DNA of 28,723 bases, from positions 1 through 28,723 of IMG/VR virus record IMGVR_UViG_3300025133_000470; one strand, given 5' to 3'. A program made the position numbers and the translations under genes. The first letter of the stretch is position 1. Each line of letters begins with the position of its first letter. Of the stretch, positions 1,684 to 27,596 are shown in pieces. Under the pieces are notes generated by a model. The model did no database searches. It was not told where the DNA came from and worked only from the letters and a program-made list of their open reading frames with translations. Source of the DNA: a virus.

Positions 1684-1691
1684 CATACATA
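1684..1691 (+). promoter_or_regulatory. TATACATA-like box (CATACATA) before tail-collar fibre gene
   Basis: CATACATA follows the stop codon of the upstream gene and lies just before the AAAGGAG ribosome binding site of the next gene. It differs by one base from the octamer TATACATA found before gp13, gp22, gp23 and the gp19-like gene. It may be a late-promoter variant; on its own the evidence is weak. Confidence 0.3.
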
Positions 1692-5400: not shown

Positions 5401-5408
5401 GATACATA
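5401..5408 (+). promoter_or_regulatory. TATACATA-like box (GATACATA) before beta-helix fibre gene
   Basis: GATACATA followed by TAGTAAC lies about 7 bases before the AAAGG ribosome binding site. The extended string ATACATATAGTAA is shared with the leader of gp13 at 10253-10265. It is a candidate late-promoter variant. Confidence 0.35.
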
Positions 5409-5431: not shown

Positions 5432-7789
5432 ATGGCTGACTGGTCTGCAATTAGAATAAATAAACTCGCTGGAAGTGTTTTCACTATCAACGATGATATC
5501 ATCCTTTATGTCGCGACTAGTGGCGATGATGTCAATGGTGATGGTTCATTTGGTAATCCTTATTATTCACCACATAGAGCATTAGAATATCTAAAAGATA
5601 AAATAATTGGTGCCACAGCGTCTGTTGAAATTAATTGTGCAGCCGGAATTTATAATTTCACAGAGAAAATATTTCCCACGCATGGCCAAGGCGAAAGAAT
5701 CCGTATAATTGGTGCAGAACCAGAAGTATATAAAATTAGAGGATGTAGAGGATTTACAGCAGGCGTAAGTGGTGATTCAGACCCATATAAAGTTGGATGG
5801 TGTCATATGAAACTAATAACTTCTATTGATGACGGTGAAGGTGGAATGACAACAGAACATGGCCTAACAGCAGGAGATGTTGGAAAGTGGATGTTAATAT
5901 TTCAAACAACACAAGAAACAAATCCAGACTATCCGATAGCACGAAAAAATTTCTTAGGTTCTTGGCAAGATAATAAAGCAAGAACTGGTCTACACGCTTG
6001 GGGAAATGGAAATGGTTCAACCGCTGGATTACAGTGGACAAAGATTATGGGCGCCAGTGAAATTGTAGGATTAACTGGTGAGGCCGCAAGGCTTGTGACT
6101 GATCCCGATACTGAAGGCGGAGAATCACACATCACCATCGAGAAACATGTTCGTTCTCAATGGTGGCAGATTAGAGAAATGGAGTCGAATCGCACGAACC
6201 CATCGTCCCGCGATGGTCATGAACGAAATGTTTATAATGATTGGGTAGAAGTTGCAAATGTTACTGCTAATCCTGCGCCCAATGCGCGAAAATTTACAGC
6301 AGGGGAAAACATCGCAGTTCTTGCAGAATACGGTGACACCTTAGGTCATACAGCAGACCCAGCATTTGTTCCTTCTACAGAAATGGAAATTGAAGGCAGA
6401 GTAATTCGTACCATTTTCAAATTTACTTCCACAGATAAAATGTTGGCAATTCAAGATGGCCATTCTCTTGGAAGTATTCAAAATATTATATTCAAAGCAG
6501 AGGATAATGGTGTAAAGGCCGGTGTTTTTCTTAGTGATAATTCAAGTTTGAATGATTTTGAAAGGGGTGCTGATGCTGAAAACATAACAAAAAATTGTGG
6601 TGTTGTTGGCGCCAATAGAGGATGGACTGTTCATAGTGGGTCTTCTTTATATGGTAAGAATTTAGTTGCAGCGACATCTTCGTTTGATACAGTTGCCTTC
6701 GGAGGGCAAGGATTTTTCACACAAGATACTGGTTCGTATATGGACTGTAGGCATTCTGTAGCACTTGGGTTTGAACATGGTTTTTATTCGAATCTGCAAT
6801 CAGAACTAAGATGCGATTATTCACTCGCAGGCCATTGTAATCATTACCACGGATGGCTGGGATTTAAGAATAATTTTGATTTTTCGACAATACCTGTTCC
6901 TGGTTACATTTATCAAGAAAATGGACTCCACGGCGTAGAGTTTGTAGGGAAAATTACTCATAAAACCGAGCAAAATTATAGAGTAAATGTTGCGGCTATT
7001 ACATATGGCCTCCCGAACCTAGACACCGGCTCGTACTGGTTATATATGAACGCAAATCAAGCAGAAGCAGAAAAAGGTGCCGATGGTGCTGGAAGTGTTG
7101 CTGTAAATCGTGATACCGATTTAATGGCCTCATACATACACCCAAGAGGTGTAGGATTTTATAGTTGGGGACAATCTACTACTTACGCTCCAAGTTGTAT
7201 TGCAACAGGACTTGGTGGCCACGGCTTTGTTGTGGGCATGGACGGGCTTTGTGTCTGTAATAAGTCTGTGGCATCTGAAATTATGGGTAATGGGTATGAT
7301 TCGGCCCGCGGTAAACTCAATGCAATTGATTCAGTAGCCAGTAGGACTAATCGTGGGTATTATCTTGCCGGCGCTGGTAATTATGTTCCTTATACTATGG
7401 CAGTAAATAATGTTAGTGATAATGTATTCGTAGTGACTGGCCACTCTGAAACAGCACATACGGAATCAGCAGAGGGATTTGATATGGCATTAATTACACA
7501 TAAAACTTCTACCAATCATGGCCAGCAAATAGGAACTTTTTATCGAGGCACCAATGCTACGCATCGAGTATATAATTCTGCACAAACCAACAATACACCT
7601 TATGATGGTGGTGCCGACGGCGCGCGAGGGGATGGTGATTATAATGTAGGCCCCGCGCACAACAAACCCAATCGGTATCACGCCACCTTGGATGGCATGA
7701 TTGACTTCACCCACGATGAGAACGATCTTGCATCTGTTGACGAACCAATAACCAACGCACTTGGTCATACAGATTTGGGAGGACAATAA
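5432..7789 (+). CDS. Large tail protein, probable right-handed beta-helix fibre/spike
   Basis: A 785-residue protein. Residues of about 25-95 have the pattern that opens many phage pectate-lyase-like beta-helices: LYVATSGDDVNGDGSFGNPY, HRALEYLKDKI, VEINCAAGIYNFTEKI, IRIIGAEPEVYKI. The body is made of short strands rich in Gly, Asn and Asp with recurring small motifs (GVVGANRGWTVHSGSSLYGKNLVAA), consistent with stacked coils. The N-terminus MADWSAIRINKLAG resembles those of the two preceding fibre genes, suggesting a common docking peptide or common descent. Beta-helix spikes can bind or cleave capsular sugars; I see no catalytic residues I can assign, so binding only is equally possible. An AAAGG site precedes the ATG. 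No signal peptide or membrane segment is seen. Confidence 0.65.
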   Translation: MADWSAIRINKLAGSVFTINDDIILYVATSGDDVNGDGSFGNPYYSPHRALEYLKDKIIGATASVEINCAAGIYNFTEKIFPTHGQGERIRIIGAEPEVYKIRGCRGFTAGVSGDSDPYKVGWCHMKLITSIDDGEGGMTTEHGLTAGDVGKWMLIFQTTQETNPDYPIARKNFLGSWQDNKARTGLHAWGNGNGSTAGLQWTKIMGASEIVGLTGEAARLVTDPDTEGGESHITIEKHVRSQWWQIREMESNRTNPSSRDGHERNVYNDWVEVANVTANPAPNARKFTAGENIAVLAEYGDTLGHTADPAFVPSTEMEIEGRVIRTIFKFTSTDKMLAIQDGHSLGSIQNIIFKAEDNGVKAGVFLSDNSSLNDFERGADAENITKNCGVVGANRGWTVHSGSSLYGKNLVAATSSFDTVAFGGQGFFTQDTGSYMDCRHSVALGFEHGFYSNLQSELRCDYSLAGHCNHYHGWLGFKNNFDFSTIPVPGYIYQENGLHGVEFVGKITHKTEQNYRVNVAAITYGLPNLDTGSYWLYMNANQAEAEKGADGAGSVAVNRDTDLMASYIHPRGVGFYSWGQSTTYAPSCIATGLGGHGFVVGMDGLCVCNKSVASEIMGNGYDSARGKLNAIDSVASRTNRGYYLAGAGNYVPYTMAVNNVSDNVFVVTGHSETAHTESAEGFDMALITHKTSTNHGQQIGTFYRGTNATHRVYNSAQTNNTPYDGGADGARGDGDYNVGPAHNKPNRYHATLDGMIDFTHDENDLASVDEPITNALGHTDLGGQ

Positions 7790-10251: not shown

Positions 10252-10259
10252 TATACATA
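10252..10259 (+). promoter_or_regulatory. TATACATA box before gp13, candidate late promoter
   Basis: An exact TATACATA octamer lies 4 bases before the AAGGAG site of gp13. It resembles the T4 late box TATAAATA with one change. If used like a T4 late promoter, transcription would start about at 10265, leaving a very short leader that begins at the ribosome binding site. Confidence 0.4.
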
Positions 10260-10281
10260 TAGTAAGGAGAAATAACTACTA

Positions 10282-11052
10282 ATGCGACCTATTACAAGAC
10301 AAAACCTAAAAGATTATGCATTGAGAAAACTTGGGGCTCCTGTCACAGAAATCAATGTCGATGATGCACAGTTAGAAGATTGCATCGATGATGCATTGCA
10401 ATACTTTGCAGAATATCACTTTGATGGAACAGAAAGAAGGTATTACAAATATGCCATTACACAAGAAGATTTAGACAGAGCAGACGGCGACCCCAATGGG
10501 GGTTATATTTTATTGGATGGTATTGATGCCAATATCATTTCAATCACAGGTCTATATCAATTTTCTACACTAAGTTCTAATATGTTTGATGTTCGATACC
10601 AAATGGCATTGAATGATTTTTATGGAATCCGTTCAGGAATGGGCAGCATCACCAATTATAGCATCACAAAACAAAATCTTGAATTGATTTCACAAATGTT
10701 AGACCCCACAAAAAATATGAGGTTTACAAGAGTAACCAATAAATTATACATCGATGCCAATTGGGGTGAAGATTTCGCAGTTGGTGAATATATTCTTTTT
10801 GAATGTTATTCTGCAATCGACCCAGAAACATACACAGAAATTTATGATAACATCCTTTTGAAAAGATATGTTACTGCATTGTTCAAAAAGCAATGGGGGC
10901 AAAATCTTTCTAAATTTGAAGGGATTCAATTGCCAGGTGGCGTTTCGTTCAACGGTGCAGTTATTATAGACCAAGCAATAGCAGACATAGAAAAGATAGA
11001 AGAAGAAGTTTCATTGCGTTATGAATTACCAATAGATTTCTTTACGGGCTAA
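10282..11052 (+). CDS. 13: Neck (head completion) protein gp13
   Basis: A 256-residue protein matching the gp13 family: the N-terminal helix RQNLKDYALRKLGAPVTEINVDDAQLEDCIDDALQYFAEYHFDG is characteristic of T4-like gp13. The central segment (DANIISITGLYQF, FDVRYQMALNDFYGIRS) and the region ECYSAIDPETYTEIYDNILLKRYVTALFKKQWGQNLSKFEGIQLPGGV are also typical. In T4, gp13 and gp14 form the neck that closes the packaged head at the portal and accepts the tail. It is somewhat shorter than T4 gp13 (309 residues). Its order before gp14 and gp15 is the same as in T4. The ATG has a good AAGGAG site. Confidence 0.9.
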   Translation: MRPITRQNLKDYALRKLGAPVTEINVDDAQLEDCIDDALQYFAEYHFDGTERRYYKYAITQEDLDRADGDPNGGYILLDGIDANIISITGLYQFSTLSSNMFDVRYQMALNDFYGIRSGMGSITNYSITKQNLELISQMLDPTKNMRFTRVTNKLYIDANWGEDFAVGEYILFECYSAIDPETYTEIYDNILLKRYVTALFKKQWGQNLSKFEGIQLPGGVSFNGAVIIDQAIADIEKIEEEVSLRYELPIDFFTG

Positions 11053-11056
11053 TAAC

Positions 11057-11070
11057 ATGTATTAATACAT
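11057..11070. promoter_or_regulatory. 14-bp perfect palindrome in gp13-gp14 gap
   Basis: ATGTATTAATACAT reads the same on both strands and begins four bases after the gp13 stop. It contains AATACAT, a relative of the TATACATA box. It may be a protein-binding site or a weak RNA hairpin; there is no T-run, so not a classical terminator. Confidence 0.4.
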
Positions 11071-11136
11071 TTTATTTCCCCTAACACAGAGATTATAACC
11101 GCACATTGCAAATGTGTCAAGGAAAAAATATAAAGA

Positions 11137-12078
11137 ATGTCAAAAAACCCATATTTTAATCACCAACAATCTGAAAAGAGTTTGGTAGAAGATTTAACCA
11201 TTGAATCAATCAAAATTCACGGTTATGATATGGTGTATATTCCAAGAACACTAGTAGGCGAAGATACCATTTTCGGTGAAGATGCCATTTCTAAATTTAC
11301 TGATGGTAATGTTATAGAAATGTATATTTCAAATGTGGATGGGTTTCAAGGAGAGGGAGATTTTATTTCTAAGTTTGGATTAGAGATAAGAGATTCTATT
11401 GATTTGGTCGTATCAAAGAAAAGATTCAACGAAGCATTACGATATAAAAGTGATATAATAAGACCAAGAGAAGGAGATTTGATTTATTTCCCACTTTCAA
11501 AGGGATTATTTGAAATCAAATTTGTAGAACACGAAAACCCATTCTATCAGTTGGGAAGTTTGTACACATATAAACTATCGTGTGAACTCTTTACTTACAG
11601 CCAAGAAACATTGGATACTGGATATAGTGATGTTGATGTAGTTGAAGATAATATGAATAAGTATGCTGTTGATTTGGTTCTTTCTGCTATAAAAGGTTCT
11701 GTTGAGGATTATGTTGCGGGTGAAACTGTATATCAAGTATTGGGTGCATCTGGAGATGGAATCACATTATCAAATGCAACATCTTATGCTACTGTAATGG
11801 ATTGGACTCAAACAGGAACTACTGGTTCTATTAGAATTACTAATATTTCTGGAACATTCTCAACATCTGGCAGCAATACGGTTCGTGGTGCATCGTCTAA
11901 TGCAGAATATACTATCGGTTCAACTTCAACTACAACAGTAATTGTTCCATCTGGAATGACAGGTGGTGCAGGCGGTGATAATGAAGATTTTGAATTTGAA
12001 GTAGATATGAATAATGTATTTGATTTGTCTGATATAGACCCATTCTCTGGTGGCTCATTCTTTACGGGAGGTAGTTGA
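11137..12078 (+). CDS. 14: Neck protein gp14
   Basis: A 313-residue protein. Residues 1-175 match the gp14 family: MSKNPYFNHQQSEKSLVEDL, IESIKIHGYDMVYIPR, LGLEIRDSIDLVVSKKRF-like text (here KFGLEIRDSIDLVVSKKRFN), RPREGDLIYFPLSKGLFEIKFVE and FYQLGSLYTYKLSCELFTYS. gp14 joins gp13 in the head-tail neck. About residues 190-280 carry a Gly/Ser/Thr-rich inserted module (ETVYQVLGASGDGI, ATVMDWTQTGTTGSIRITNI, SGSNTVRGASSNAEYTI) followed by an acidic tail with FDLSDIDPFSGGSFF. This makes it longer than T4 gp14 (256). The stop TGA overlaps the ATG of gp15 (TGATG), so the two are probably translationally coupled. The AAGGA site is 13 bases from the ATG, farther than usual. Confidence 0.9.
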   Translation: MSKNPYFNHQQSEKSLVEDLTIESIKIHGYDMVYIPRTLVGEDTIFGEDAISKFTDGNVIEMYISNVDGFQGEGDFISKFGLEIRDSIDLVVSKKRFNEALRYKSDIIRPREGDLIYFPLSKGLFEIKFVEHENPFYQLGSLYTYKLSCELFTYSQETLDTGYSDVDVVEDNMNKYAVDLVLSAIKGSVEDYVAGETVYQVLGASGDGITLSNATSYATVMDWTQTGTTGSIRITNISGTFSTSGSNTVRGASSNAEYTIGSTSTTTVIVPSGMTGGAGGDNEDFEFEVDMNNVFDLSDIDPFSGGSFFTGGS

Positions 12079-12904
12079 TGTTTGGTTCGGCCAATAGATT
12101 TTATCATTCTTCACTTCGCCGTTTAGTAATTGCTTTCGGTTCATTATTCAATGATGTACACATCGAACGAGTTGGTGACGATAAAGAGATTCGTGTTCCT
12201 GTAACATATGGACCAAAAGAAAAATTTCTTAGGCGACTTCAAGAAAATGCTTCTTTGGATGATGCAGATGTCGCATACACAACACCAATGATGTCTTTTG
12301 AAATTTCTTCAATTGCGTATGATGCAGGAAGAAAACGAAACACAATTGGAAAACGATTTATACGAGATGCCAGTGATGTTGACCAATTAAAATACAATTT
12401 CACTGAAGTTCCATACAATATAGATTTTACTCTTAGTGTTCTTGTTCGCCACTTTGAAGATGGATTACAAATTATAGAACAGATACTTCCGTACTTTTGT
12501 CCAGAATTTAATGTTACAATAAACATAAATGATATCAACCAAAAAGTAGATGTTCCAATTATGCTAAATGATGTAAATCTAGAAGAAGAATACGAAGGGG
12601 ATTTTGAATCTAGAAGAACAATTATATTTACTTTGACATTTACTGCAAAAACTTATCTCTACGGTAAGATTAGAGATTCCAAACACATTAGAAGAACAGA
12701 AACAACTTTGTGGAACTTCGGTGAAAAAGATTGGACATATGGACCGACTGGCGCCACATCGGCTGGTGCTACTGGTGCATTATCATTAGTAGAAGTTGGT
12801 GTGACAGGAGCAACGGCACATATGTCCGATTATGATGATTATACAAATCTATATGTTTGGGGACATACAGGTGCAAATTTAGACAGTGATGGAGGCACAT
12901 CATA

Positions 12905-12905
<1 letters not shown>
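12078..12905 (+). CDS. 15: Tail sheath stabiliser / tail terminator gp15
   Basis: A 275-residue protein starting at the ATG that overlaps the gp14 stop, with GGGAGG just upstream; a TTG three bases earlier is less likely. The start MFGSANRFYHSSLRRLVIAFGSLFNDVHIER and the segments RVPVTYGPKEKFLRRL, DVAYTTPMMSFEISSIAYDAGRK and VPYNIDFTLSVLVRHFEDGLQIIEQILPYFCPEFN are those of T4-like gp15, a hexamer that caps the contracted-tail sheath and binds the neck. The length is near T4 gp15 (272). The last 55 residues are rich in Gly-Ala-Thr (GPTGATSAGATGA, GVTGATAHM, GHTGANLDSDGG), a low-complexity C-terminus I do not recall from T4. The stop TAA shares a base with the next ATG. Confidence 0.92.
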
Positions 12906-14981
<2,076 letters not shown>

Positions 14982-15091
14982 AAATGAAGGATTTTATATA
15001 TAATCTTAGACATACAAAAGTAAAGATAGCACTAATAGTCGCTATAATATAAGTAAAATGACTCATTTCAGGATTTCAAAGGAGAAATAAT

Positions 15092-17116
15092 ATGGGATTT
15101 CAAGTTAGTCCGGGTGTAAATGTAACAGAAAAGGATTTAACCAATGTCATACCCGCAGTCGCGACAACAACTGCTGGTATAGCAGGTACTTTTCGTTGGG
15201 GCCCTGTTGGTAAAAGAATAACAGTTGATAGCGAAAATAATTTAGCAGATATATTTTGGAAACCAGATACATCAGACAGTTCAGCATATTTTCATACAGC
15301 AGCCAACTATCTAGGTTATGGTAATAATCTTGAAGTGGTTCGTGTCGCAGAAACAAATGCATATAATGCATCAGACGATGGTGCAACTAGTCAAGTAAAA
15401 GATAAAACAGATTTCGATGATGGCATTCCAGCGGCGTTTGTCGCCACACAATGGATTGCAAGATATCCTGGCGCACTAGGAAATAGTTTGCAAGTACAAG
15501 TATTTGATGGCGACGGCAAGGTAATTTCAGGAGCAACAGCAGGTGCTGGATATACTGGCGCCGCAGGTTCACGAACCCTTTACGACCCAGCACCTCTTGG
15601 TGGCACAGCGGGTCAAACTATTTTAGCAGGTGATGATGCAATCGTTGTCGTCAACGGCCTTTCTGATGACATCTCTAAGGGTGATACACTTCGATTCTCT
15701 GGTGGACAAGATAGAACAGTTAGAACTGGTTTAACAAGTGGTTTTACTGGTGCAATTTTATTCAACCCAGTTCTTGAAGCAGGCCTTGATTTAGGACACA
15801 CCTTTGATGTTATCAGTAAACACAGTATTCAAACTCTAAGTGGACCAGCAACAACAACACAATGGGGACAAGACCTTGGTATATCTGGTGATGAACTTCA
15901 TATTTTAGTAATAGATGAAGATGGAGATTGGACAGGAGTTTCTGGTGAAGTTCTAGAACGATTTGAAAACCTTTCATTCGCAGGAAACGCTAAAAACGAA
16001 AATGGTGCAAATAATTATTACAAAGATGTAATCAACGAACAATCTGCATATGTTTATGCGTATGTAGGAATAACACTAGCAGGCGCAGGAAGTTCGGCAG
16101 CAGGTGATAATGTAGTTTCAGGAAATACATTCGGAGATTGTGCAACATTCTCTTGGAGTCTTACTGGCGGTGCCGATGGTGGCTCAGCCGCAAACGAAGC
16201 ATTATTGTTCACTCAGGGATATAATGAGTGGGAAGACCCAGAAACAGTAGATGTATCATTACTTCTTGGTGGACCAGCAGAAGGTACAGTAAGTAGACTT
16301 TTGGTAGACATTTGCGATAGACGAAAAGATTGCGTTGCATTCCTTTCACCGCCAAAGACAGCGGTTGTAAATAAGACTGCTACTCAAGCACAAGGTAATA
16401 TTCGAGATTATCGACTAGGACTAAATGCACAAAACGGAACACAAAACTATGTAAGCAACAACTTGAATGTATCGAGTTCCTACGCAATGTTAGACAGTGG
16501 TTGGAAGTATCAATACGACAAGTATAATGACAGGTACATGTATGTTCCACTAAACGGAGATATCGCAGGACTATGCACCAGAACGGAACAAAATTTCGAT
16601 GCTTGGTGGCCACCTGCCGGTTTCAATCGTGGACAAATTCGTGGTGTTGTACGATTAGCGCACAATCCAAGAAAAGCACACCGAGATAATCTTTATAAAG
16701 ACCAAATCAACCCAGTGGTTTCATTCCCTGGCGAAGGCGTGGTTCTTTTTGGTGACAAAACAATGCAAGCAAAACCAAGTGCATTCGATAGAATCAATGT
16801 AAGACGACTTTTCATTGTTCTTGAAAAAGCAATTGCAACTGCTGCCAAATATCAACTCTTTGAACTCAACGACCAATTTACTCGTTCACAATTCAAGAGT
16901 ATGATTGTTCCGTTCCTAAGAGATATTCAATCTCGTAGAGGAATCACTGACTTTATGGTAGTTTGTGATGACACAAACAATCCCGGCAGCGTAGTCGATA
17001 GAAATGAATTTGTTGCAGACATTTATGTCAAACCAACTCGTTCAATCAACTTCATTCAGTTGAACTTCATTGCAACCAGAACTGGTGTAGATTTCAGTGA
17101 AGTTGTAGGAGCATAA
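15092..17116 (+). CDS. 18: Tail sheath protein gp18
   Basis: A 674-residue contractile sheath subunit, close to T4 gp18 (659). The start GFQVSPGVNVTEKDLTNVIPAVATTTAGIAGTFRWGPVGK is the typical sheath N-terminus that forms the strand exchange with neighbouring subunits. The C-terminal domain is strongly conserved: GVVLFGDKTMQAKPSAFDRINVRRLFIVLEK, YQLFELNDQFTRSQFKSM, then RNEFVADIYVKPTRSINFIQLNF and TGVDFSE. The middle (about 130-280) is the variable, surface-exposed protrusion domain, here rich in Gly and Ala. The gene has an AAAGGAG site and stands apart from its neighbours with about 110 bases before and 91 bases after, which suggests its own transcription control for a highly expressed product. 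Confidence 0.96.
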   Translation: MGFQVSPGVNVTEKDLTNVIPAVATTTAGIAGTFRWGPVGKRITVDSENNLADIFWKPDTSDSSAYFHTAANYLGYGNNLEVVRVAETNAYNASDDGATSQVKDKTDFDDGIPAAFVATQWIARYPGALGNSLQVQVFDGDGKVISGATAGAGYTGAAGSRTLYDPAPLGGTAGQTILAGDDAIVVVNGLSDDISKGDTLRFSGGQDRTVRTGLTSGFTGAILFNPVLEAGLDLGHTFDVISKHSIQTLSGPATTTQWGQDLGISGDELHILVIDEDGDWTGVSGEVLERFENLSFAGNAKNENGANNYYKDVINEQSAYVYAYVGITLAGAGSSAAGDNVVSGNTFGDCATFSWSLTGGADGGSAANEALLFTQGYNEWEDPETVDVSLLLGGPAEGTVSRLLVDICDRRKDCVAFLSPPKTAVVNKTATQAQGNIRDYRLGLNAQNGTQNYVSNNLNVSSSYAMLDSGWKYQYDKYNDRYMYVPLNGDIAGLCTRTEQNFDAWWPPAGFNRGQIRGVVRLAHNPRKAHRDNLYKDQINPVVSFPGEGVVLFGDKTMQAKPSAFDRINVRRLFIVLEKAIATAAKYQLFELNDQFTRSQFKSMIVPFLRDIQSRRGITDFMVVCDDTNNPGSVVDRNEFVADIYVKPTRSINFIQLNFIATRTGVDFSEVVGA

Positions 17117-17121
17117 AATAA

Positions 17122-17162
17122 TATAGGGAATATATGCCTTTTTCTAAAAGAAAATCCCTATA
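17122..17162 (+). terminator. Stem-loop in sheath-tube gap, possible attenuator or weak terminator
   Basis: TATAGGGA (17122-17129) pairs with TCCCTATA (17155-17162). Within the loop, TTTTC and GAAAA can pair around TAAA, continuing the stem above a 10-base one-sided bulge. There is no T-run after the stem, so full termination is doubtful. It could reduce read-through, stabilise mRNA ends or be a processing site between gp18 and gp19. Confidence 0.4.
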
Positions 17163-17207
17163 TAATAATAGAAAGTAATTTTGTTTACACACTAAGGAGA
17201 AACAAAG

Positions 17208-17801
17208 ATGAACATTGATAAATTTGCCAGTAACTTTCACGGAGGTGGTATTAGACCTCACCTTTTCCAAGTTTCTGGTTCAATCGGCGCCGACAACACA
17301 AAAAGAGAAACTCAGAGTTTTCATATCAAGTCCGCCAATTTACCAGCATCCACTTTAGGGAAAATTGAAGTTCCTTATCGCGGAAGAAAAATCCCAATTC
17401 CGGGAGATCGGTCATTCGCAGAATGGACTATTACTGTATTGTGCCGAGGAGACCTAGCACTAAGAGATTCATTTGAAAAATGGTCAAATGACATAAATGA
17501 ACATGTAGATAATGTATCTGGTTTGGGTAACAGTCCAGACCATCAACCTCTTGGAAATAATAGTAATTTTGCTAATCCAGACGTTTTCAAAGATTGGCAA
17601 GTTTCACAACTAGACAGGGGTGGAAATGTTCTAAAAGAATATACTTTTTATGGTTGCTGGCCTTCAGAAATAGCAGCGATTGAAGTAAATGCAGAGACCG
17701 TGGACTCAGTTGCAGAATTTGGTGTAACACTACAATATTCATATTGGACAACAGAAGGTATCAATTTCAGACATCCAAAACACAAAAAAGCAATGGGTTA
17801 A
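17208..17801 (+). CDS. 19: Tail tube protein gp19
   Basis: A 197-residue tube subunit; T4 gp19 has 163. Key family features: the start MNIDKFASNFHGGGIRPHLFQV, LPASTLGKIEVPYRGRKIPIPGDRSFAEWTITVLCRGD, LRDSFEKWSNDIN and the closing KEYTFYGCWPSEIAAIEVNAE with VTLQYSYWT. The protein stacks into the rigid inner tube through which DNA is ejected, within the sheath made by the preceding gene. A segment of about residues 100-130 (VSGLGNSPDHQPLGNNSNFAN) looks like an extra surface loop. It carries an AAGGAG site. A second gene with the same fold lies at 23409-23990. Confidence 0.93.
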   Translation: MNIDKFASNFHGGGIRPHLFQVSGSIGADNTKRETQSFHIKSANLPASTLGKIEVPYRGRKIPIPGDRSFAEWTITVLCRGDLALRDSFEKWSNDINEHVDNVSGLGNSPDHQPLGNNSNFANPDVFKDWQVSQLDRGGNVLKEYTFYGCWPSEIAAIEVNAETVDSVAEFGVTLQYSYWTTEGINFRHPKHKKAMG

Positions 17802-17838
17802 TTTCACAAACGAATTTTATATAATGAGGAAATAGAAC

Positions 17839-19380
17839 ATGCCGATAGAATTATTTGGTTTTTCAATAGGTAAAAAGGGAAAAACTTCTCCCAATACAAA
17901 TCCCACAGAATCAGGCGGAAATGCAAAATCTTTTGTACCGCCTGATTTTGATGATGGCGCCATCACAATTACCCCCAGTGGTGCAGGATTTTATGGAACA
18001 TATCTAGACATTGAAGGTGCAATAAGAAACGATATTGAGTTAATCAATAGATATCGTGATATGTCCCTCAGTCCAGAATGTGAAATAGCAGTTGATGACA
18101 TCGTAAACGAATCCATCGTATATGACAACAGTAAAAGACCTGTTGAAATAAATTTAGACGAAGTGGATTATGCTGATTCAATTAAAACTAAAATTGCAAA
18201 TGAATTTGATAATGTTCTTCAACTTTTAGATTTTGGAAACAAGGGTTACGAAATTTATAGAAAATGGTATATCGATAGTAGATTATATTACCATATCATA
18301 TTAGACGAAAATTCTAAGAAGGGTATACAAGAACTTAGACCTATCGATTCTACACAAATAAGAAAAATCAGAAATGTAAAGAAAAAATCTATGCAAAGGG
18401 GTTCATCTACAGTAGATATAGTTGACGGTGTAGAAGAATTTTATGTGTATTACGATGCCTTTGAACAGAAACCAATGCCAGAAGAAGGAATAAAGGTAGC
18501 ACTTGATTCGGTTTGTTATATTCATTCAGGATTATATGACCGGTCAGGAAAAAGAGTTGTAGGATATCTACAAAAAGCAATAAAACCACTCAATCAACTT
18601 AGAATGATTGAAGATGCAGTTGTAATTTATAGAATTTCTCGCGCACCTGAACGAAGAATATTCTATATTGATGTTGGTAATCTACCAAAGAATAAAGCAG
18701 AACAATATCTCAAAGACATTATGAACCGATACCGCAATAAATTGGTTTATGATGCCAGTACAGGTGAGATACGAGATGACAAAAAACATATGTCAATGCT
18801 TGAAGATTACTGGCTTCCCCGCCGCGAAGGTGGCCGTGGAACAGAGATTGCAACACTTGACGGTGGACAAAATCTTGGTGAAATGGAAGATGTCGAATAC
18901 TTCAAGAAACAATTATATAAATCATTGAATATTCCTGTTAGCCGATTAGAAGCAGATAATGGTTTCAATATGGGCAGGGCTGCCGAAATAACTAGGGACG
19001 AAGTAAAATTTTCAAAATTTATCTATCGACTTAGAAAGAAATTTTCTGAATTATTTATAAATCTATTACGAGTTCAGTTGGTGCTAAAGGGTATTATTAC
19101 AGAGGAGGATTGGGATAAAATCAAACAACATATTGATTTTAACTATAAAGCCGATTCATTTTATGCCGAATTGAAAGAAGCAGAGATTTTAAAAGAACGA
19201 ATGGATGTCTTGAATGTTATGGATGAATATATAGGCCGATACTACTCTATTGATTATGTACGAAAAAATATACTCAAACAGGATGAACAAGAGATTAAAG
19301 AAATAGACAAACAGATTGCTGCCGAAAAGAAAACAGGCGCAATCAACCCAGATGACGAAGAACCAAACAGTAATTATTAA
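17839..19380 (+). CDS. 20: Portal protein gp20
   Basis: A 513-residue portal subunit, near T4 gp20 (524). Typical segments are YLDIEGAIRNDIELINRYRDMSLSPECEIAVDDIVNE, FDNVLQLLDFGNKGYEIYRKWYIDSRLYYHIIL, ELRPIDSTQIRKIRNVKK, GYLQKAIKPLNQLRMIEDAVVIYRISRAPERRIFYIDVGNLPKNKAEQYL and LEDYWLPRREGGRGTEIATL. The dodecamer forms the DNA entry channel, the docking site of gp17 and later of gp13. It nucleates prohead assembly at the membrane. The C-terminal 30 residues are charged and probably disordered. It has a GAGGA site and leads the head operon. Confidence 0.96.
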   Translation: MPIELFGFSIGKKGKTSPNTNPTESGGNAKSFVPPDFDDGAITITPSGAGFYGTYLDIEGAIRNDIELINRYRDMSLSPECEIAVDDIVNESIVYDNSKRPVEINLDEVDYADSIKTKIANEFDNVLQLLDFGNKGYEIYRKWYIDSRLYYHIILDENSKKGIQELRPIDSTQIRKIRNVKKKSMQRGSSTVDIVDGVEEFYVYYDAFEQKPMPEEGIKVALDSVCYIHSGLYDRSGKRVVGYLQKAIKPLNQLRMIEDAVVIYRISRAPERRIFYIDVGNLPKNKAEQYLKDIMNRYRNKLVYDASTGEIRDDKKHMSMLEDYWLPRREGGRGTEIATLDGGQNLGEMEDVEYFKKQLYKSLNIPVSRLEADNGFNMGRAAEITRDEVKFSKFIYRLRKKFSELFINLLRVQLVLKGIITEEDWDKIKQHIDFNYKADSFYAELKEAEILKERMDVLNVMDEYIGRYYSIDYVRKNILKQDEQEIKEIDKQIAAEKKTGAINPDDEEPNSNY

Positions 19381-19402
19381 ATAAACATTAGGAGAAAATG
19401 AG

Positions 19403-19831
19403 ATGAACCCCGTAAAAAAGATGATTGGCTCGATATTGAATAAAAATGTAAGCGAGTTTCAAACTGAATTTGACAGTGCGGTAAAAGACCGTATAGCAGT
19501 TAAAGTTGACGATATGAAGGGTGGAATCTCAAATACATTAATTTCTCCAGTACATAACACACCACAAGATGAAAAAGAAGCACAGGCCTCAAACGAATCT
19601 GTATTAAAATTAGTAAACTCTTTACGATTTGTAACAGAAAATAATGATGCTGTTGTGTTAGAACTTCTAAACGGTGAAGAAGTAGACCTCATACCAGAAG
19701 ATGCCAATAAAATCAATAATGTTCATGATATGTTGACGACAGAAAATCAAGAAGTGTTTAGAAATAAATTGATGCAAGATGCAGAATCATTCAAATCAAT
19801 GGTTTCTTTTGCTTGCGAAAAAGCAGGATAA
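19403..19831 (+). CDS. Probable prohead core protein between portal and protease (gp68-like position)
   Basis: A 142-residue protein, mostly helical and charged, with no hydrophobic segment. In T4, the small internal core proteins gp67 and gp68 are encoded exactly here, between gp20 and gp21, and this gene starts 22 bases after the portal stop with its own AGGAG site. The N-terminal region (MNPVKKMIGSILNKNVSEFQTEFDSAVKDRIAVKVDDMK) has the amphipathic pattern of the gp68 start. The C-terminal half (LRFVTENNDAVVLELLNGEEVDLIPEDANKI) is not one I recognise. Assignment rests mainly on position and composition. Confidence 0.6.
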   Translation: MNPVKKMIGSILNKNVSEFQTEFDSAVKDRIAVKVDDMKGGISNTLISPVHNTPQDEKEAQASNESVLKLVNSLRFVTENNDAVVLELLNGEEVDLIPEDANKINNVHDMLTTENQEVFRNKLMQDAESFKSMVSFACEKAG

Positions 19832-19836
19832 TAAAA

Positions 19837-20022
19837 ATGGAACAAGAAAATATAATTAAATCTGTAATGGATGGTGACTTCATTTCTGCCAGAAAAGAAA
19901 CAAAAAATACACTTTATAGAAAAGCGGCTGAGCAAATGGATGCAGTAAAAGCAGAAATATCTGCAAATTACGCACAAAGGCCAGCACATTCAGAAAATGA
20001 TAATCATCAAGAAGGGGAATAG
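19837..20022 (+). CDS. 67: Small prohead core protein, gp67-like
   Basis: A 61-residue protein starting at an ATG 8 bases after CAGGA; the longer reading from a TTG inside the preceding gene is unlikely. MEQENIIKSVMDGDFISARKETKNTLYRKAAEQMDAVKAEIS follows the T4 gp67 pattern (an N-terminal helix with ...I...D...ARK.F...L..K....L...K..IA), and the acidic C-terminus with HSENDNHQEGE recalls its acidic tail, much shortened. gp67 is part of the prohead core and is degraded by the gp21 protease, which is encoded directly next to it (stop TAG then ATG with no gap). The homology is weak because of length. Confidence 0.6.
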   Translation: MEQENIIKSVMDGDFISARKETKNTLYRKAAEQMDAVKAEISANYAQRPAHSENDNHQEGE

Positions 20023-20679
20023 ATGAAATTAATTACAGAAACAACAGAAAATATTCGATATATTACCGAAGATAAAGAAGATGGTAAAAAAAGCCACTTT
20101 ATTGAAGGTATTTTTATGCAAGCAGAAACAAAGAATCGTAATGGTCGAGTATACCCAAAATCAATTCTTATGAAAGAAGTAAAACGATATGCTAAAGAAT
20201 ATGTAAAAGGCAATCGTGCTATGGGTGAATTAGGACATCCCGAAGGGCCAAGTCTAAATTTGGAACGAGTATCTCATATCATTCACGAACTAAAAGAAGA
20301 TGGTAATAATGTTTGGGGTAGAGCAAAAGTTTTAGACACACCCTACGGTAACATTGTAAAGAATCTAATGGATGAAGGCGCCAAATTAGGTGTATCTTCA
20401 AGAGGAATGGGTTCTTTAAAGCAAAAAAACGGTGTAAATGAAGTACAAGAAGATTTTATGCTTGCGGCAGTTGATATTGTTGCAGACCCATCAGCACCCG
20501 ATGCCTATGTAAATGGCATAATGGAAGGAAAAGAATGGGTATGGGAAAATGGATGTTTGAAAGAACATGAAATTGCAGAATATGAAAGAATTATAAAAAC
20601 GGCTTCTTCTAGAGAACTAGAAGAAAAATCATTAAGTGTATTTGCTGACTTTTTATCCAAATTGAATGGATATAAGTAA
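20023..20679 (+). CDS. 21: Prohead core protease gp21
   Basis: A 218-residue serine protease (T4 gp21: 212) that matures the prohead by cutting scaffold, core and capsid proteins at (L/I)xE sites. It shows the herpesvirus-assemblin-like pattern: FIEGIFMQAETKNRNGRVYPKSIL, RAMGELGHPEG with catalytic-type His72, WGRAKVLDTPYGNIVKNLMDEGAKLGVSSRGMGSL with the active Ser in the SSRG motif (125/126), and DFMLAAVDIVADPSAPDAYV. Its ribosome binding site AAGGGG lies within the end of the preceding core gene. It is expected to be made as a zymogen packed in the core. Confidence 0.95.
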   Translation: MKLITETTENIRYITEDKEDGKKSHFIEGIFMQAETKNRNGRVYPKSILMKEVKRYAKEYVKGNRAMGELGHPEGPSLNLERVSHIIHELKEDGNNVWGRAKVLDTPYGNIVKNLMDEGAKLGVSSRGMGSLKQKNGVNEVQEDFMLAAVDIVADPSAPDAYVNGIMEGKEWVWENGCLKEHEIAEYERIIKTASSRELEEKSLSVFADFLSKLNGYK

Positions 20680-20696
20680 GTGAAAATGTATTTAAA

Positions 20697-20704
20697 TATA
20701 CATA
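20697..20704 (+). promoter_or_regulatory. TATACATA box before scaffold gene, candidate late promoter
   Basis: An exact TATACATA 57 bases before the gp22 ATG, far enough to leave a normal leader. It forms the right half of an inverted repeat, ATGTAT (20687-20692) with ATACAT (20698-20703) around a TTAAAT-type centre. It resembles the T4 late box TATAAATA. Good candidate for driving gp22. Confidence 0.45.
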
Positions 20705-20761
20705 AAGAAGTAAATAGGTTATAAAACCACAAACTAGTTTGAAAGAAATAGGAGATAACTA

Positions 20762-21799
20762 ATGGATTACAAAGACCCCATCAGTGCGGCAAAAGACATC
20801 CTTAATAAAGATTTGTTAGAAGAAATTAATACAGATGAAACTGTTGAAACAGATGATTCATTAGTAGTTGAAGATGCTGAAGAAGAAACAAACGAAGCAT
20901 CAGAAACACCAACTCTAGACATTAAATCTATCGAGGATACAAAACTATATGATGACGGCACAGGCAAAGGTGCTAAGGTCGGTACGGACAAGGGAACAGA
21001 AGGCAAAGACAAAAAGAACAAGAAAAGCATCGAAAATAAAGCAAAAGGCAAGGGCGATGCACCTGTTCCTGCAAAGGAACATCTTGAAGTTCTTTTTGCT
21101 ACTTCATCTGAGGACCTTTCAGAAGATTTTAAGGAAGCCGCAACAACCATCTTTGAGGCAGCAATAGCAGAAAGAGTTAGTGTTATTGAAGAAGAACTCA
21201 AAGAAAATCACGATAAAGTTATTGCAGAACATACAAAAGAAATCACAGACCATCTAACTGAGCGTCTAGATGATTATCTCAATTATGTTGTAGAAGAATG
21301 GATGAAAGAAAACGAATTAGCAGTAGAAAACGGAATCCGTTCAGATATTGCTGAATCCTTCATTACAGGACTCAAGGAATTGTTTGAAAATAATAGTATT
21401 ACAATTCCAGATGAAAACTATGAACTCTTAGAGGGTGTAGTTGAAAAAGCAGAAGAACTTGAAAAACAACTTAATACTGAAATTGAAACCAATATGGAAC
21501 TAAAGAAAGAAATCTCAGAAAGCCAATGCAGTAATATCTTTCACGAAGTTTCTAACGGATTGGTTGACACAGAAGTAGAAAAACTTCGTAAACTTTCTGA
21601 AGGAATCGAATTTGAAGATTCAGAACAATATAAAGAAAAGTTGACCATCATAAAAGAAAGTTATTTTGGTGAAAGCACAACGGCTACATCATCAGAAGAA
21701 CCAGATACTACACCAACGGATGAAACATATCCAACAGCCAGTAAAAATACTGTAATGGACAGATATGTCAAATCAATCAAAGACAGCGTAAAAGACTAA
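20762..21799 (+). CDS. 22: Prohead scaffold (core) protein gp22
   Basis: A 345-residue, very acidic, helical protein directly before the capsid gene, as gp22 in T4 (269 residues). It begins DYKDPISAAKDILNKDLLEEI. A Lys/Gly-rich stretch (about 65-105: GKGAKVGTDKGTEGKDKKNKK) separates the N-terminus from a long helical body of about 105-300 with the typical KEHLEVLFATSSEDLSEDFKEAATTIFEAAIAERVSVIEEEL and LTERLDDYLNYVVEEWMKENELAVENGIRSDIAESFITGLKELF. The C-terminus MDRYVKSIKDSVKD is of the kind that binds capsid protein. It is cut to small peptides by gp21; several LxE/IxE sites are present. It has an AGGAG site and its own leader. Confidence 0.93.
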   Translation: MDYKDPISAAKDILNKDLLEEINTDETVETDDSLVVEDAEEETNEASETPTLDIKSIEDTKLYDDGTGKGAKVGTDKGTEGKDKKNKKSIENKAKGKGDAPVPAKEHLEVLFATSSEDLSEDFKEAATTIFEAAIAERVSVIEEELKENHDKVIAEHTKEITDHLTERLDDYLNYVVEEWMKENELAVENGIRSDIAESFITGLKELFENNSITIPDENYELLEGVVEKAEELEKQLNTEIETNMELKKEISESQCSNIFHEVSNGLVDTEVEKLRKLSEGIEFEDSEQYKEKLTIIKESYFGESTTATSSEEPDTTPTDETYPTASKNTVMDRYVKSIKDSVKD

Positions 21800-21801
21800 T
21801 A

Positions 21802-21814
21802 CCGTAAGTTACGG
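21802..21814. promoter_or_regulatory. Dyad CCGTAA-G-TTACGG upstream of capsid gene
   Basis: A perfect 6-bp inverted repeat around one base, three bases after the gp22 stop and four bases before the TATACATA box at 21819. It may be an operator or activator site for the capsid promoter, or a small hairpin marking the gp22 mRNA end; no T-run follows. Confidence 0.4.
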
Positions 21815-21818
21815 ATAT

Positions 21819-21826
21819 TATACATA
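21819..21826 (+). promoter_or_regulatory. TATACATA box before capsid gene, candidate late promoter
   Basis: An exact TATACATA 55 bases before the gp23 ATG. In T4 the capsid gene has a strong late promoter with TATAAATA. The distance leaves a leader of about 50 bases ending in AAAGGAG. Confidence 0.5.
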
Positions 21827-21881
21827 AAACTAGAAATTAGAATTCAAATATTCATTTATAGGACTTTAAAGGAGAGATTCA

Positions 21882-23318
21882 ATGGATACAAATTTAGCAA
21901 ATGTTGACCAACTACGGGAAAAATGGAATCCTGTACTCAGTCACGAAGATATGCCAGACATTCAAGATTCATATCGTAAGAATGTTACGGCAATTTTATT
22001 GGAAAATCAGGAAAACGCAATTCGCGAACAACATCTGCATGAAGCAGTACCCGCCAACGCGGCAGGTGGCGGTCTTGGTCTTGATACAGCAAACAGCAAC
22101 GACTACATGCAGGGATTTGACCCAATTCTTATCTCTCTTGTTCGTAGAGCAATGCCAAACCTAATTGCATATGATGTTGCCGGTGTGCAACCAATGACAG
22201 GTCCTACTGGACTTATCTTTGCACTCAAGAGCAGATACAATACGCAAGACGGCGATGAAGCACTTCATAACGAAGCACGACTCAGATACGGTGCTACAAG
22301 TAGTGCTGGCCCAACTTCAGCAAGTGCTGGCGGTGACCCACTATTCAATGACTATGGTGTTTCAGGTGCTGGTGGTACTCTTGGATACGAAGTAAACGGT
22401 GGTATGTCAAGAAGTGGCGCAGAAAGCCTCGGCCAATCAGGTACATTGTTCAACGAAATGGCATTCAGTGTAGAACGAACATCGGTTGAAGCAAAGACCC
22501 GTGCCCTCAAAGCAGAATACACAACTGAACTCGCTCAAGACTTGAAAGCAGTTCACGGACTTGATGCAGAAACAGAACTTGCTAACATTCTTAGCACTGA
22601 AATTCTTTCAGAAATCAACCGAGAAGTCATCCGTACAATTTACTACGGTGCAGTTCTTGGCGCACAACATGATGACCTCAGAGGTGGTGCCGCAGGCAGC
22701 ACTTACGGTATTACAGGAGGTGGCGCAGGTGGTTCGACTGGCTGTGGCGGTATATACGACTGTCAGTATGATTCTGACGGACGATGGAGTGCAGAACGAT
22801 GGCGTGGTCTTCTCTATCAACTAGAACGAGAAGCAAACATGATTTCTAAAACAACACGCCGTGGTAAAGGTAACTTCGTTATCTGCTCCGCAGATGTTGC
22901 ATCCGCACTCGCAATGAGTGGTTTCCTACAACTATCGCCAGGAATCAACACATCCTTGGCTGTAGATGACACAGGTAACACTTTTGCAGGTTTACTAAAC
23001 GGTAAGATGAAAGTATACATCGACCCATACAGTGGTCCTGGTATCAATGCAACTGCAAGCAACTATGCTTGTGTTGGATATCGTGGTTCTTCACCTTACG
23101 ATGCTGGTATGTTCTACTGCCCATATGTTCCATTACAAATGGTTCGTGCGGTTGGTGAAAATACATTCCAACCTAAGATTGGTTTCAAAACTCGTTACGG
23201 AATGGTAAACAACCCATTCGTAGATGGTAGTTCTGACCCATTGGCTGCGGCATCACTCCGCAGGAATCAATACTACAGAATCTTCCGTATTGATAACCTT
23301 CACGGTTTAGGTAGTTGA
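21882..23318 (+). CDS. 23: Major capsid protein gp23
   Basis: A 478-residue capsid precursor. The sequence follows T4-like gp23: LREKWNPVLSHEDMPDIQDSYRKNVTAILLENQE, then GFDPILISLVRRAMPNLIAYDVAGVQPMTGPTGLIFALKSRY, LFNEMAFSVERTSVEAKTRALKAEYTTELAQDLKAVHGLDAETELANILSTEILSEINREVIR and the C-terminal GENTFQPKIGFKTRYGMVNNPF. The likely gp21 cleavage site is LHE|AVPAN after Glu54, fitting the (L/I)xE rule and close to the T4 site after Glu65, leaving about 424 residues. Codon choice looks more biased than in neighbours (many GAA, GGT, AAC), as expected for the most abundant product. It has its own candidate promoter and a strong terminator. Confidence 0.97.
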   Translation: MDTNLANVDQLREKWNPVLSHEDMPDIQDSYRKNVTAILLENQENAIREQHLHEAVPANAAGGGLGLDTANSNDYMQGFDPILISLVRRAMPNLIAYDVAGVQPMTGPTGLIFALKSRYNTQDGDEALHNEARLRYGATSSAGPTSASAGGDPLFNDYGVSGAGGTLGYEVNGGMSRSGAESLGQSGTLFNEMAFSVERTSVEAKTRALKAEYTTELAQDLKAVHGLDAETELANILSTEILSEINREVIRTIYYGAVLGAQHDDLRGGAAGSTYGITGGGAGGSTGCGGIYDCQYDSDGRWSAERWRGLLYQLEREANMISKTTRRGKGNFVICSADVASALAMSGFLQLSPGINTSLAVDDTGNTFAGLLNGKMKVYIDPYSGPGINATASNYACVGYRGSSPYDAGMFYCPYVPLQMVRAVGENTFQPKIGFKTRYGMVNNPFVDGSSDPLAAASLRRNQYYRIFRIDNLHGLGS

Positions 23319-23337
23319 GAATAGAACTCTAAATAGT

Positions 23338-23351
23338 CCTTTCTAGAAAGG
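23338..23351. repeat. 14-bp palindrome overlapping base of capsid terminator
   Basis: CCTTTCTAGAAAGG is a perfect palindrome. As RNA it could form a 5-bp stem with a CUAG loop; its 3' arm shares GG(G) with the foot of the terminator hairpin that follows, so the two stems compete at their junction. Confidence 0.45.
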
Positions 23352-23375
23352 GAGTCCTTCGGGACTCCCTTTTTT
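23350..23375 (+). terminator. Intrinsic terminator after capsid gene
   Basis: GGGAGTCC and GGACTCCC form an 8-bp stem (23350-23357 with 23362-23369) closed by the very stable UUCG tetraloop between C and G, followed by six T (23370-23375). Preceding A residues can extend the stem into the T-run. This is a textbook factor-independent terminator placed 31 bases after the gp23 stop. Confidence 0.93.
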
Positions 23376-23381
23376 ATTTGA

Positions 23382-23389
23382 TATACATA
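23382..23389 (+). promoter_or_regulatory. TATACATA box directly after capsid terminator, candidate late promoter
   Basis: An exact TATACATA six bases after the T-run of the gp23 terminator and six bases before the AGGAG site of the next gene. A gene placed behind so strong a terminator needs its own promoter, which supports this box. TATACA and TGTATA flank TAC to form a 6-bp dyad (23382-23396). Confidence 0.5.
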
Positions 23390-23408: not shown

Positions 23409-23990
23409 ATGGGCGACACAGGACCAGCATATTCATATTTACCAGGCATAGGAAAATTTCTTGGGGAAACTGCTTTAGATAGGCAACCCACCAACACAAA
23501 TTTTCTACTTCCCACTTCTTTTAGATTTGATTTGAAAAGAATACCTTCTGTTGTTTTCTTTTGCCAAAGTGTAAACCTTCCCTCTTTAACATTGGGTGAA
23601 ATTTCACAACCTACAAGATTTTCCCTTCCAGTAAAACGGTCGGGCGATACTTTTGAATTCGAAGATTTGACAGTAAATTTTATTGTTGACGAAGAAATGA
23701 AATCTTGGCTAGAAATTTATAATTGGATGTCTACCATTACAAATTTGGAAGATTTTGACACATATAATGCCGCAGGTCATGGCGACCCGCCTAACGAAAT
23801 GAATCATTATTCTGATGCAGTTCTAATCATAACAAATAGTGCCAAAAATCCACTTCTAGAAGTAAATTTCAAAGGGTGTTTTCCAAAATCTTTATCTGCA
23901 ATAGAATTTGACAGTAAAACTACTGACAATGAACCACTTGTGGCAACTGTTACATTTGGCTATACATCATACAAAGTAGAGGCCCTTTAA
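23409..23990 (+). CDS. Second tail-tube-fold protein (gp19/gp54-like)
   Basis: A 193-residue protein with the layout of phage tail tube proteins. Compare gp19 of this phage: LPASTLGKIEVPYRGRKIPIPGD with LPSLTLGEISQPTRFSLPVKRSGD here; WTITVLCRGD...LRDSFEKWSNDIN with LTVNFIVDEEMKSWLEIYNWMSTI here; and YGCWPSEIAAIEV...VTLQYSY with KGCFPKSLSAIEF...VTFGYTSY here. The same fold occurs in T4 gp54 and gp48, which start the tube on the baseplate, and the last block also resembles gp54. Marine T4-like phages often carry gp3 (tail completion) at this position. Role as a tube initiator or tube-end protein is inference; the fold is well supported by the internal comparison. It begins right after the capsid terminator and has its own ribosome binding site (AGGAG). 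Confidence 0.7.
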   Translation: MGDTGPAYSYLPGIGKFLGETALDRQPTNTNFLLPTSFRFDLKRIPSVVFFCQSVNLPSLTLGEISQPTRFSLPVKRSGDTFEFEDLTVNFIVDEEMKSWLEIYNWMSTITNLEDFDTYNAAGHGDPPNEMNHYSDAVLIITNSAKNPLLEVNFKGCFPKSLSAIEFDSKTTDNEPLVATVTFGYTSYKVEAL

Positions 23991-23999
23991 AAATACAAC

Positions 24000-24027
24000 T
24001 TGACTTTTTTGTTTTTTGTAGTATACT
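24000..24027 (+). promoter_or_regulatory. Sigma70-type promoter before uvsY
   Basis: TTGACT (24000-24005), a 16-base T-rich spacer and TATACT (24022-24027) give one mismatch each to TTGACA and TATAAT. Start of transcription would be near 24034, with AAAGG at 24043-24047 and the uvsY ATG at 24054. The -10 lies within a perfect palindrome TAGTATACTA (24019-24028), a possible operator. It is the only clear -35/-10 pair noticed in the window. Confidence 0.75.
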
Positions 24028-24053
24028 AGTAGTATTATACACAAAGGTATATT

Positions 24054-26993: not shown

Positions 26994-27596
26994 ATGGCTG
27001 GCAAGAAAAAGAAAAAGAAAACAACCAACAACTATATCGATAATGAAGAATTTTTCAAAGCAATGTGTGAATGGAAAATTTTAGTAAACGATGCAACAGA
27101 ATCAGGTGAAACAGTACCACCTGTGACTAATTATATTGGTGAGTGTTTTTATAAAATATCTGAACACCTTTCATATAGACCAAATTTTATCAATTATCCA
27201 TTTAGAGATGAAATGGTTGGAGATGGAATCGAAAATTGTCTAATGTATTGCCATAATTTCAATCCAGAAAAATCAAAAAATCCATTTTCATATTTTACTC
27301 AAATCATATATTATGCATTTTTGAGAAGAATACAAAAAGAGAAAAAACAAAATTATATAAAGTATAAATTGGTAGAAGCCAATGATACCGAAGGAAATAT
27401 TCCAAGATGGTATTCAGACACTTATGCCGACCATAAAGATTCTGCAATGAGAAATCCGTATGCAGATATGTTCGGCCTGTCACAATGCGATATTGAGAAA
27501 TTTTCCCCAAAACCAAAAAAGAAAAAAAACAAACAAGCAGAAATTGATAATATTTTACAGGATGATGATATAAGTGAAGATAGCAATAATAAATGA
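26994..27596 (+). CDS. 55: Late-gene sigma factor gp55
   Basis: A 200-residue sigma factor that redirects host RNA polymerase to late promoters. The core (about 48-122) is the sigma region 2-like part: YIGECFYKISEHLSYRPNFINYPFRDEMVGDGIENCLMYCHNFNPEKSKNPFSYFTQIIYYAFLRRIQKEKKQ, very close in pattern to T4 gp55. The N-terminus has six Lys in a row, and a second Lys cluster (PKPKKKKNK) precedes an acidic tail (DNILQDDDISEDSNNK). T4 gp55 ends in a short sliding-clamp-binding motif; I cannot clearly see its equivalent. The length is near T4 gp55 (185). It overlaps gp47 by 23 bases. It would read the TATACATA-type boxes if these are late promoters. Confidence 0.92.
   Translation: MAGKKKKKKTTNNYIDNEEFFKAMCEWKILVNDATESGETVPPVTNYIGECFYKISEHLSYRPNFINYPFRDEMVGDGIENCLMYCHNFNPEKSKNPFSYFTQIIYYAFLRRIQKEKKQNYIKYKLVEANDTEGNIPRWYSDTYADHKDSAMRNPYADMFGLSQCDIEKFSPKPKKKKNKQAEIDNILQDDDISEDSNNK

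Follow-up and report, generated by a model that had tools for sequence, protein, structure and literature searches.

Late promoters of bacteriophage T4 stray little from TATAAATA, a consensus that tolerates single deviations (PMC2988020), and the cryo-EM structure of the T4 open complex shows A(–12) stacked on Y97 of the late sigma factor gp55, A(–9) flipped into a shallow pocket of N13 and H95, and A(–8) bonded to T99 (PMC7892883). The cyanophage late box is NATAAATA (PMC2984593), and in the T4-like phage Aeh1 a box that differs by one base, CTAAATA, already goes together with a diverged gp55 (PMC1524935). Here we analyze IMG/VR record IMGVR_UViG_3300025133_000470 (the window: the whole stretch of 28,723 bases, a complete virus record that is itself a genome fragment), in which the octamer TATACATA precedes structural genes and, judged from sequence, is very probably a T4-like late-promoter –10 box, (N)ATACATA, spanning –13 to –6 and carrying C where T4 has A at –9. 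We read it as a T4-type late box because of its strand bias, its restriction to late genes and its interchange with ATAAATA at identical spacing. A preliminary description of the window had suggested a late-promoter consensus with a one-base shift; the late box stands, and the change is a substitution at –9 rather than a shift.

All four exact copies of TATACATA are on the + strand and within the 940 intergenic bases of the window, directly before gp13, gp22, gp23 and a gp19-like gene as first described (Table 1), and the early impression that coding sequence lacks the octamer is borne out by counts of zero inside genes and zero on the – strand. The enrichment over shuffled sequence that the preliminary description proposed to check concerns placement and not number: the whole-window total of 4 is within chance (mean 2.2; 21/100 shuffles reach 4), whereas the 13 leaders of at least 18 bases (809 bases) hold 4 copies against 0.15 expected, a count that none of 2000 dinucleotide shuffles, the control used for leaders, reaches. 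The core ATACATA is the 7-mer shared by the largest number of window leaders, 6/13 against 0.50 expected (0/2000 shuffles reach 6), and only 2/2000 shuffles place any 7-mer in at least 6 leaders, which corrects for scanning all 7-mers. The leaders concerned are those of the genes at 1714, 5432, 10282 (gp13), 20762 (gp22), 21882 (gp23) and 23409 (gp19-like), and the strand count of ATACATA in the window is 8 on + and 0 on –. The T4 form TATAAATA occurs in the window inside genes only, as do all 6 copies of ATAAATA counted on both strands; at –9, window leaders have C six times, T once and A never. Among the stronger + strand sigma70-type sites (TTGACA/TATAAT, 16–18 spacing), those listed ahead of 23 weaker ones, none overlaps any of the six boxes.

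Three one-base variants had also been put forward. Those at 1684 (CATACATA) and 5401 (GATACATA) keep ATACATA and stand in leaders, and we count both as full members because base –13 is weakly constrained here, as elsewhere among T4-like phages. The box at 1684 ends 22 nucleotides (nt) before the start codon of a gene with tail-protein matches, and two further copies of CATACATA, absent from the earlier list, lie within genes (160 and 7131). In sister contig G001 an exact TATACATA precedes the gp13 box by 5024 bases, near the place of the site at 5401 and presumably orthologous to it, and at a place comparable to the gp23 box relatives L010 and L020 carry ATACATA and L023 carries ATAAATA. The leaders at 1684, 5401, 10252 and 23382, estimated earlier at about 15–25 bases, would indeed be short given T4 spacing, with predicted lengths of about 14–18 nt; promoter activity and the +1 positions in Table 1 are predictions. 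The third variant, TATACACA at 24036, lies 9 bases downstream of the sigma70-type promoter TTGACT-16-TATACT. Leaders of uvsY in relatives almost never carry a late box (A form 1, C form 1 of 58) and often carry a sigma70-like site (68/107), and this variant is therefore probably not a late box.

Table 1 Predicted late boxes and associated features of the window (+1 positions and leader lengths assume T4 spacing)
Feature	Position	Strand	Details
Putative late box CATACATA (–13 to –6), before gene at 1714	1684..1691	+	ATACATA core; predicted +1 1697, 17-nt leader
Putative late box GATACATA, before gene at 5432	5401..5408	+	predicted +1 5414, 18-nt leader
Putative late box TATACATA, before gp13	10252..10259	+	predicted +1 10265, 17-nt leader
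gp13-like head-tail adaptor	10282..11052	+	phrog_211, E 1.3e-42
Possible late box TATATATA (T at –9), before gp18	14995..15002	+	palindromic, uncertain
Putative late box TATACATA, before gp22	20697..20704	+	predicted +1 20710, 52-nt leader
gp22-like scaffold protein	20762..21799	+	phrog_237, E 2.1e-71
Putative late box TATACATA, before gp23	21819..21826	+	predicted +1 21832, 50-nt leader
gp23-like major capsid protein	21882..23318	+	phrog_138, E 1.4e-141
Putative late box TATACATA, before gp19-like gene, just past post-gp23 terminator	23382..23389	+	predicted +1 23395, 14-nt leader
gp19-like tail tube protein, second copy	23409..23990	+	phrog_45, E 2.4e-43
Putative sigma70-type early promoter TTGACT-16-TATACT, before uvsY	24000..24027	+	
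gp55-like late sigma factor, proposed box reader	26994..27596	+	phrog_234, E 8.5e-59

The box was followed in about 160 related loci (80 loci retrieved via gp23 and 80 entries via gp55, viral contigs), supplemented afterwards by longer records of some 40 phages, taken as stretches of viral contigs and of seven named phages; genes of the relatives were called by a simple script, and the leader sets are approximate. Leaders of the fetched loci contain ATAAATA 171 times and ATACATA 83 times in the sense direction, compared with 5 and 2 times in antisense (near-copies still included). Motif discovery on leaders, proposed in the preliminary description and carried out by ranking 7-mers on sense minus antisense counts with no motif presupposed, gives ATACATA the lead for the window, a tied or near-top rank for its two sister contigs, and first or near-first place for several further contigs. 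The same ranking returns ATAAATA for cyanophage, Mosig and G013 records, places ATAAATA high in T4, Melnitz and HTVC008M, and returns CTAAATA for Aeh1, in agreement with the published box (PMC1524935). C alone is used in the window and in sister contigs G001 and G014 (6, 5 and 3 boxes, at largely shared sites). The idea of a new recognition variant for gp55 survives as a variant box, but not as one peculiar to this phage: the C form is common, mixed with the A form, in a large uncultured and mostly marine clade.

The window encodes its own gp55, as had been noted, and this protein is the expected reader of the box. The AlphaFold model of the window gp55 best matches the T4 gp55 chain 7d7c_F (root-mean-square deviation 2.1 over 116 columns), and in the alignment to PDB 7d7c chain F its N17, F98, S99, Y100 and T102 correspond to T4 N13, H95, A96, Y97 and T99. 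The equivalents of N13, Y97 and T99 are therefore kept, with H95 replaced by Phe98 and A96 by Ser99. The first replacement was discarded as the determinant, since cyanophages and pelagiphages that use A only have Phe as well and the groups are not separated. The second follows the box closely: the A/C mixture is almost confined to phages whose gp55 has Ser at the position of T4 Ala96 (Ser96 phages). Box counts, which ignore the dependence among boxes, give A:C ratios of 87:76 for Ser96 phages (antisense 13:6) and 134:7 for Ala96 phages (antisense 29:5). Among 33 records with at least 3 boxes, 23 with Ser use C and 2 do not, while none with Ala uses C and 8 do not. Base composition was rejected as the source of C, since the A:C ratio inside genes is alike in both gp55 classes (209:126 for Ser96, 145:90 for Ala96).

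Among 179 tested columns of gp55, the one that best distinguishes phages using A from phages using C is T4-96, with T4-12, beside N13, second (best two-way split). The joint classes (A:C 76:72 for D12/S96, 9:4 for N12/S96, 14:2 for D12/A96 and 106:4 for N12/A96) point to residue 96 and make residue 12 less likely as the sole determinant. Residue 96 changes at least six times on the gp55 tree. No cultured phage with the Ser96 motif was found in a search that was not exhaustive; the best isolates match a 25-residue peptide at 96% with Ala, and eight further records all have Ala. The C-terminus of the window gp55 (AEIDNILQD, 27546–27566) resembles by eye the T4 clamp-binding end PSLDFLYEA, and residues 180–190 are predicted to be helical. 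The gene for the gp45 clamp is present in sister contig G014 and is not within the window fragment.

In Ser96 phages the box is found in leaders of gp13 (14/15), gp18, gp22, gp23, the gp19-like gene (42/51) and uvsW, and no box is found in those of gp14, gp17, gp21, gp55 and gp47. ATACATA and ATAAATA replace one another at equal spacing before the same genes. Leaders of gp13 in these phages have the C form in 11 and the A form in 3 of 15 cases, 45 distinct gp13 leaders collected later show 26 C, 15 A and 0 antisense, and the median distance from box to start is 22 nt for either form. Orthologous leaders of the gp19-like gene have C in 24 and A in 18 of 51 cases, with exactly 5 nt between box and start codon in 12 A and 9 C leaders; those of gp22 have A in 11 and C in 4 of 32. 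The C-leaning of gp13 boxes and the A-leaning of gp22 boxes differ with p 0.009 in a post hoc test, a hint of promoter-specific tuning. In about 35 related loci (such as G024, G016, L082 and the Mosig record), the gp19-like late box ends exactly 5 nt before AUG. Combined with T4 numbering (–13 to –6), this gap puts +1 on the A of AUG, and the gp19-like late mRNA of many relatives is predicted to be leaderless. In the window, 19 nt separate box and gene instead, and a ribosome binding site is present.

By analogy with T4, host RNA polymerase carrying the phage gp55 would open the DNA at the box with the assistance of the gp45 clamp, transcription would begin about six bases past the box, and head and tail genes would thereby be driven late in infection. 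Serine at 96, usually with Asp in place of Asn12 alongside, may make the –9 pocket accept C besides A, and the window's own lineage would have fixed C. It is a tentative but quite conceivable picture that a large uncultured marine T4-like clade has an altered-specificity, Ser96-bearing gp55 reading C and A at –9, and that the lineage of the window has switched fully to C-only late promoters. Several observations weigh against the late-promoter reading and its link to gp55. The Ser96 association is mostly one deep split with only two to four independent pairs, too few for significance, although all of these run in the expected direction; because of these few contrasts, we can only infer that Ser96 causes the A/C mixture. 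Further gp55 columns likewise separate the clades, and the Ser96 records G029 and G031 use A only. The window itself supplies just six boxes, the sister contigs being near-copies, and its late genes gp14–gp17, gp19 and gp20 have no recognizable box.

The rival explanations differ in how much of this they accept. That the octamers arise by chance from AT-rich spacers would agree with the whole-window count, but the leader shuffles, the strand bias and the conservation over diverged phages already refute it, and its probability is negligible. A translation or RNA-processing signal near the ribosome binding site could explain why four boxes stand merely 19–23 nt ahead of the start codon; it is highly improbable given that the distance from box to start ranges from 4 to 57 nt, that uvsY (almost always) and gp55 have ordinary leaders without the box, and that in relatives the box lines up with the established late box ATAAATA.

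More weight belongs to two accounts that keep the promoter and reinterpret –9. The position may merely be relaxed in the clade (TATANATA), with gp55 indifferent to it and the C of the window due to drift. At –9, G (16) and T (33) do occur in Ser96 phages, most of which mix A and C, but after antisense subtraction A (~74) and C (~70) stand well apart from G (12) and T (17). In the window lineage –9 is C six times and never A, compared with C 68 times and A 87 times in the remaining Ser96 phages (Fisher p 0.008; test picked post hoc), a skew greater than drift would easily give, and the opposite leanings of gp13 and gp22 boxes, likewise from a post hoc test, are unexpected under free drift; we consider this account rather unlikely. 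The other possibility, doubtful yet deserving attention, is that the –9 change is a response to the polymerase of the host, to DNA modification or to a different late factor (gp33, gp45), Ser96 being only a clade marker. Residue 96 and box type do track the same deep split, where independent contrasts are few. On the other side, the best of the 179 columns is next to one of the T4 residues in contact with –9, and the runner-up of the two-way split is next to the other one, N13. Nested records with Ala96, namely G019 (A 6, C 1) and G025 (A 4, C 0), also behave as a role for residue 96 in the reading of –9 would predict.

The + strand carries all main genes of the window: genes resembling those of tail fibres, gp13 to gp23 and the second gp19-like gene, uvsY, a deaminase-like gene, uvsW, a small conserved gene, gp55 and gp47. 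DNA similarity to named phages (cyanophages, Melnitz) is short and weak, and the collection searched by DNA match contained no close cultured relative; the nearest named kin are recorded as Kyanoviridae. The window probably derives from an uncultured bacterial virus of marine origin, the habitat being that of its relatives. The second tail-tube-like gene follows the major capsid gene, with a strong terminator between them (23345–23374). A perfect sigma70 promoter, TTGACA-17-TATAAT, lies on the – strand at 11120–11092, pointing leftward from the gp13–gp14 gap and antisense to gp13; a regular-expression scan found one in no record other than the window and sister contig G001. Common to the gp18, gp19 and gp20 leaders (14981–15092, 17116–17208 and 17801–17839) is TATATAAT, which is distinct from the ATACATA box. 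An Rfam search of the window returned zero matches.

Late boxes are commonly sought with a TATAAAT seed, as in the Melnitz and cyanophage late-promoter surveys, and such searches overlook the C form. Late-promoter prediction was reported to fail in a pelagimyophage study, where the C form may or may not be the reason. Adding ATACATA to searches would make late genes recognizable in many uncultured phages, and a base in the gp55 pocket together with a substitution beside that pocket offers a direct test of joint change between a sigma factor of a phage and the dozens of promoters it reads. If the proposed gp55 specificity and the switch to C-only promoters are correct, gp55 of the A type, as in T4, cyanophages and pelagiphages, would read the late genes of the window poorly. 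Among the titles listed in the literature searched, outside which most subscription papers fall, none concerned a phage late box of the form TATACATA or ATACATA, and the box with C at –9 would add a second form of a textbook switch.

Compared with T4, the window shares the 8-bp box, the lack of a conserved –35 element, the position before late genes, the tolerant –13, the N13, Y97 and T99 equivalents of gp55, and a spacing to start codons that fits the T4 +1; it differs in having C where T4 has A at –9 (T4 leaders A:C 22:1) and Phe and Ser in place of H95 and A96. S-PM2, S-WAM2, HTVC008M, Mosig and Melnitz, whose box is NATAAATA, share with it the Kyanoviridae assignment in records, the gp23–gp55 gene order, Phe at the H95 position and a loose –13, but nearly always have A at –9 (A:C 21:1, 16:1, 14:1, 24:1 and 15:0, respectively) and have Ala at the A96 position. 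Aeh1 differs in that its changed base is –12, not –9, and its gp55 keeps His95 and Ala96.

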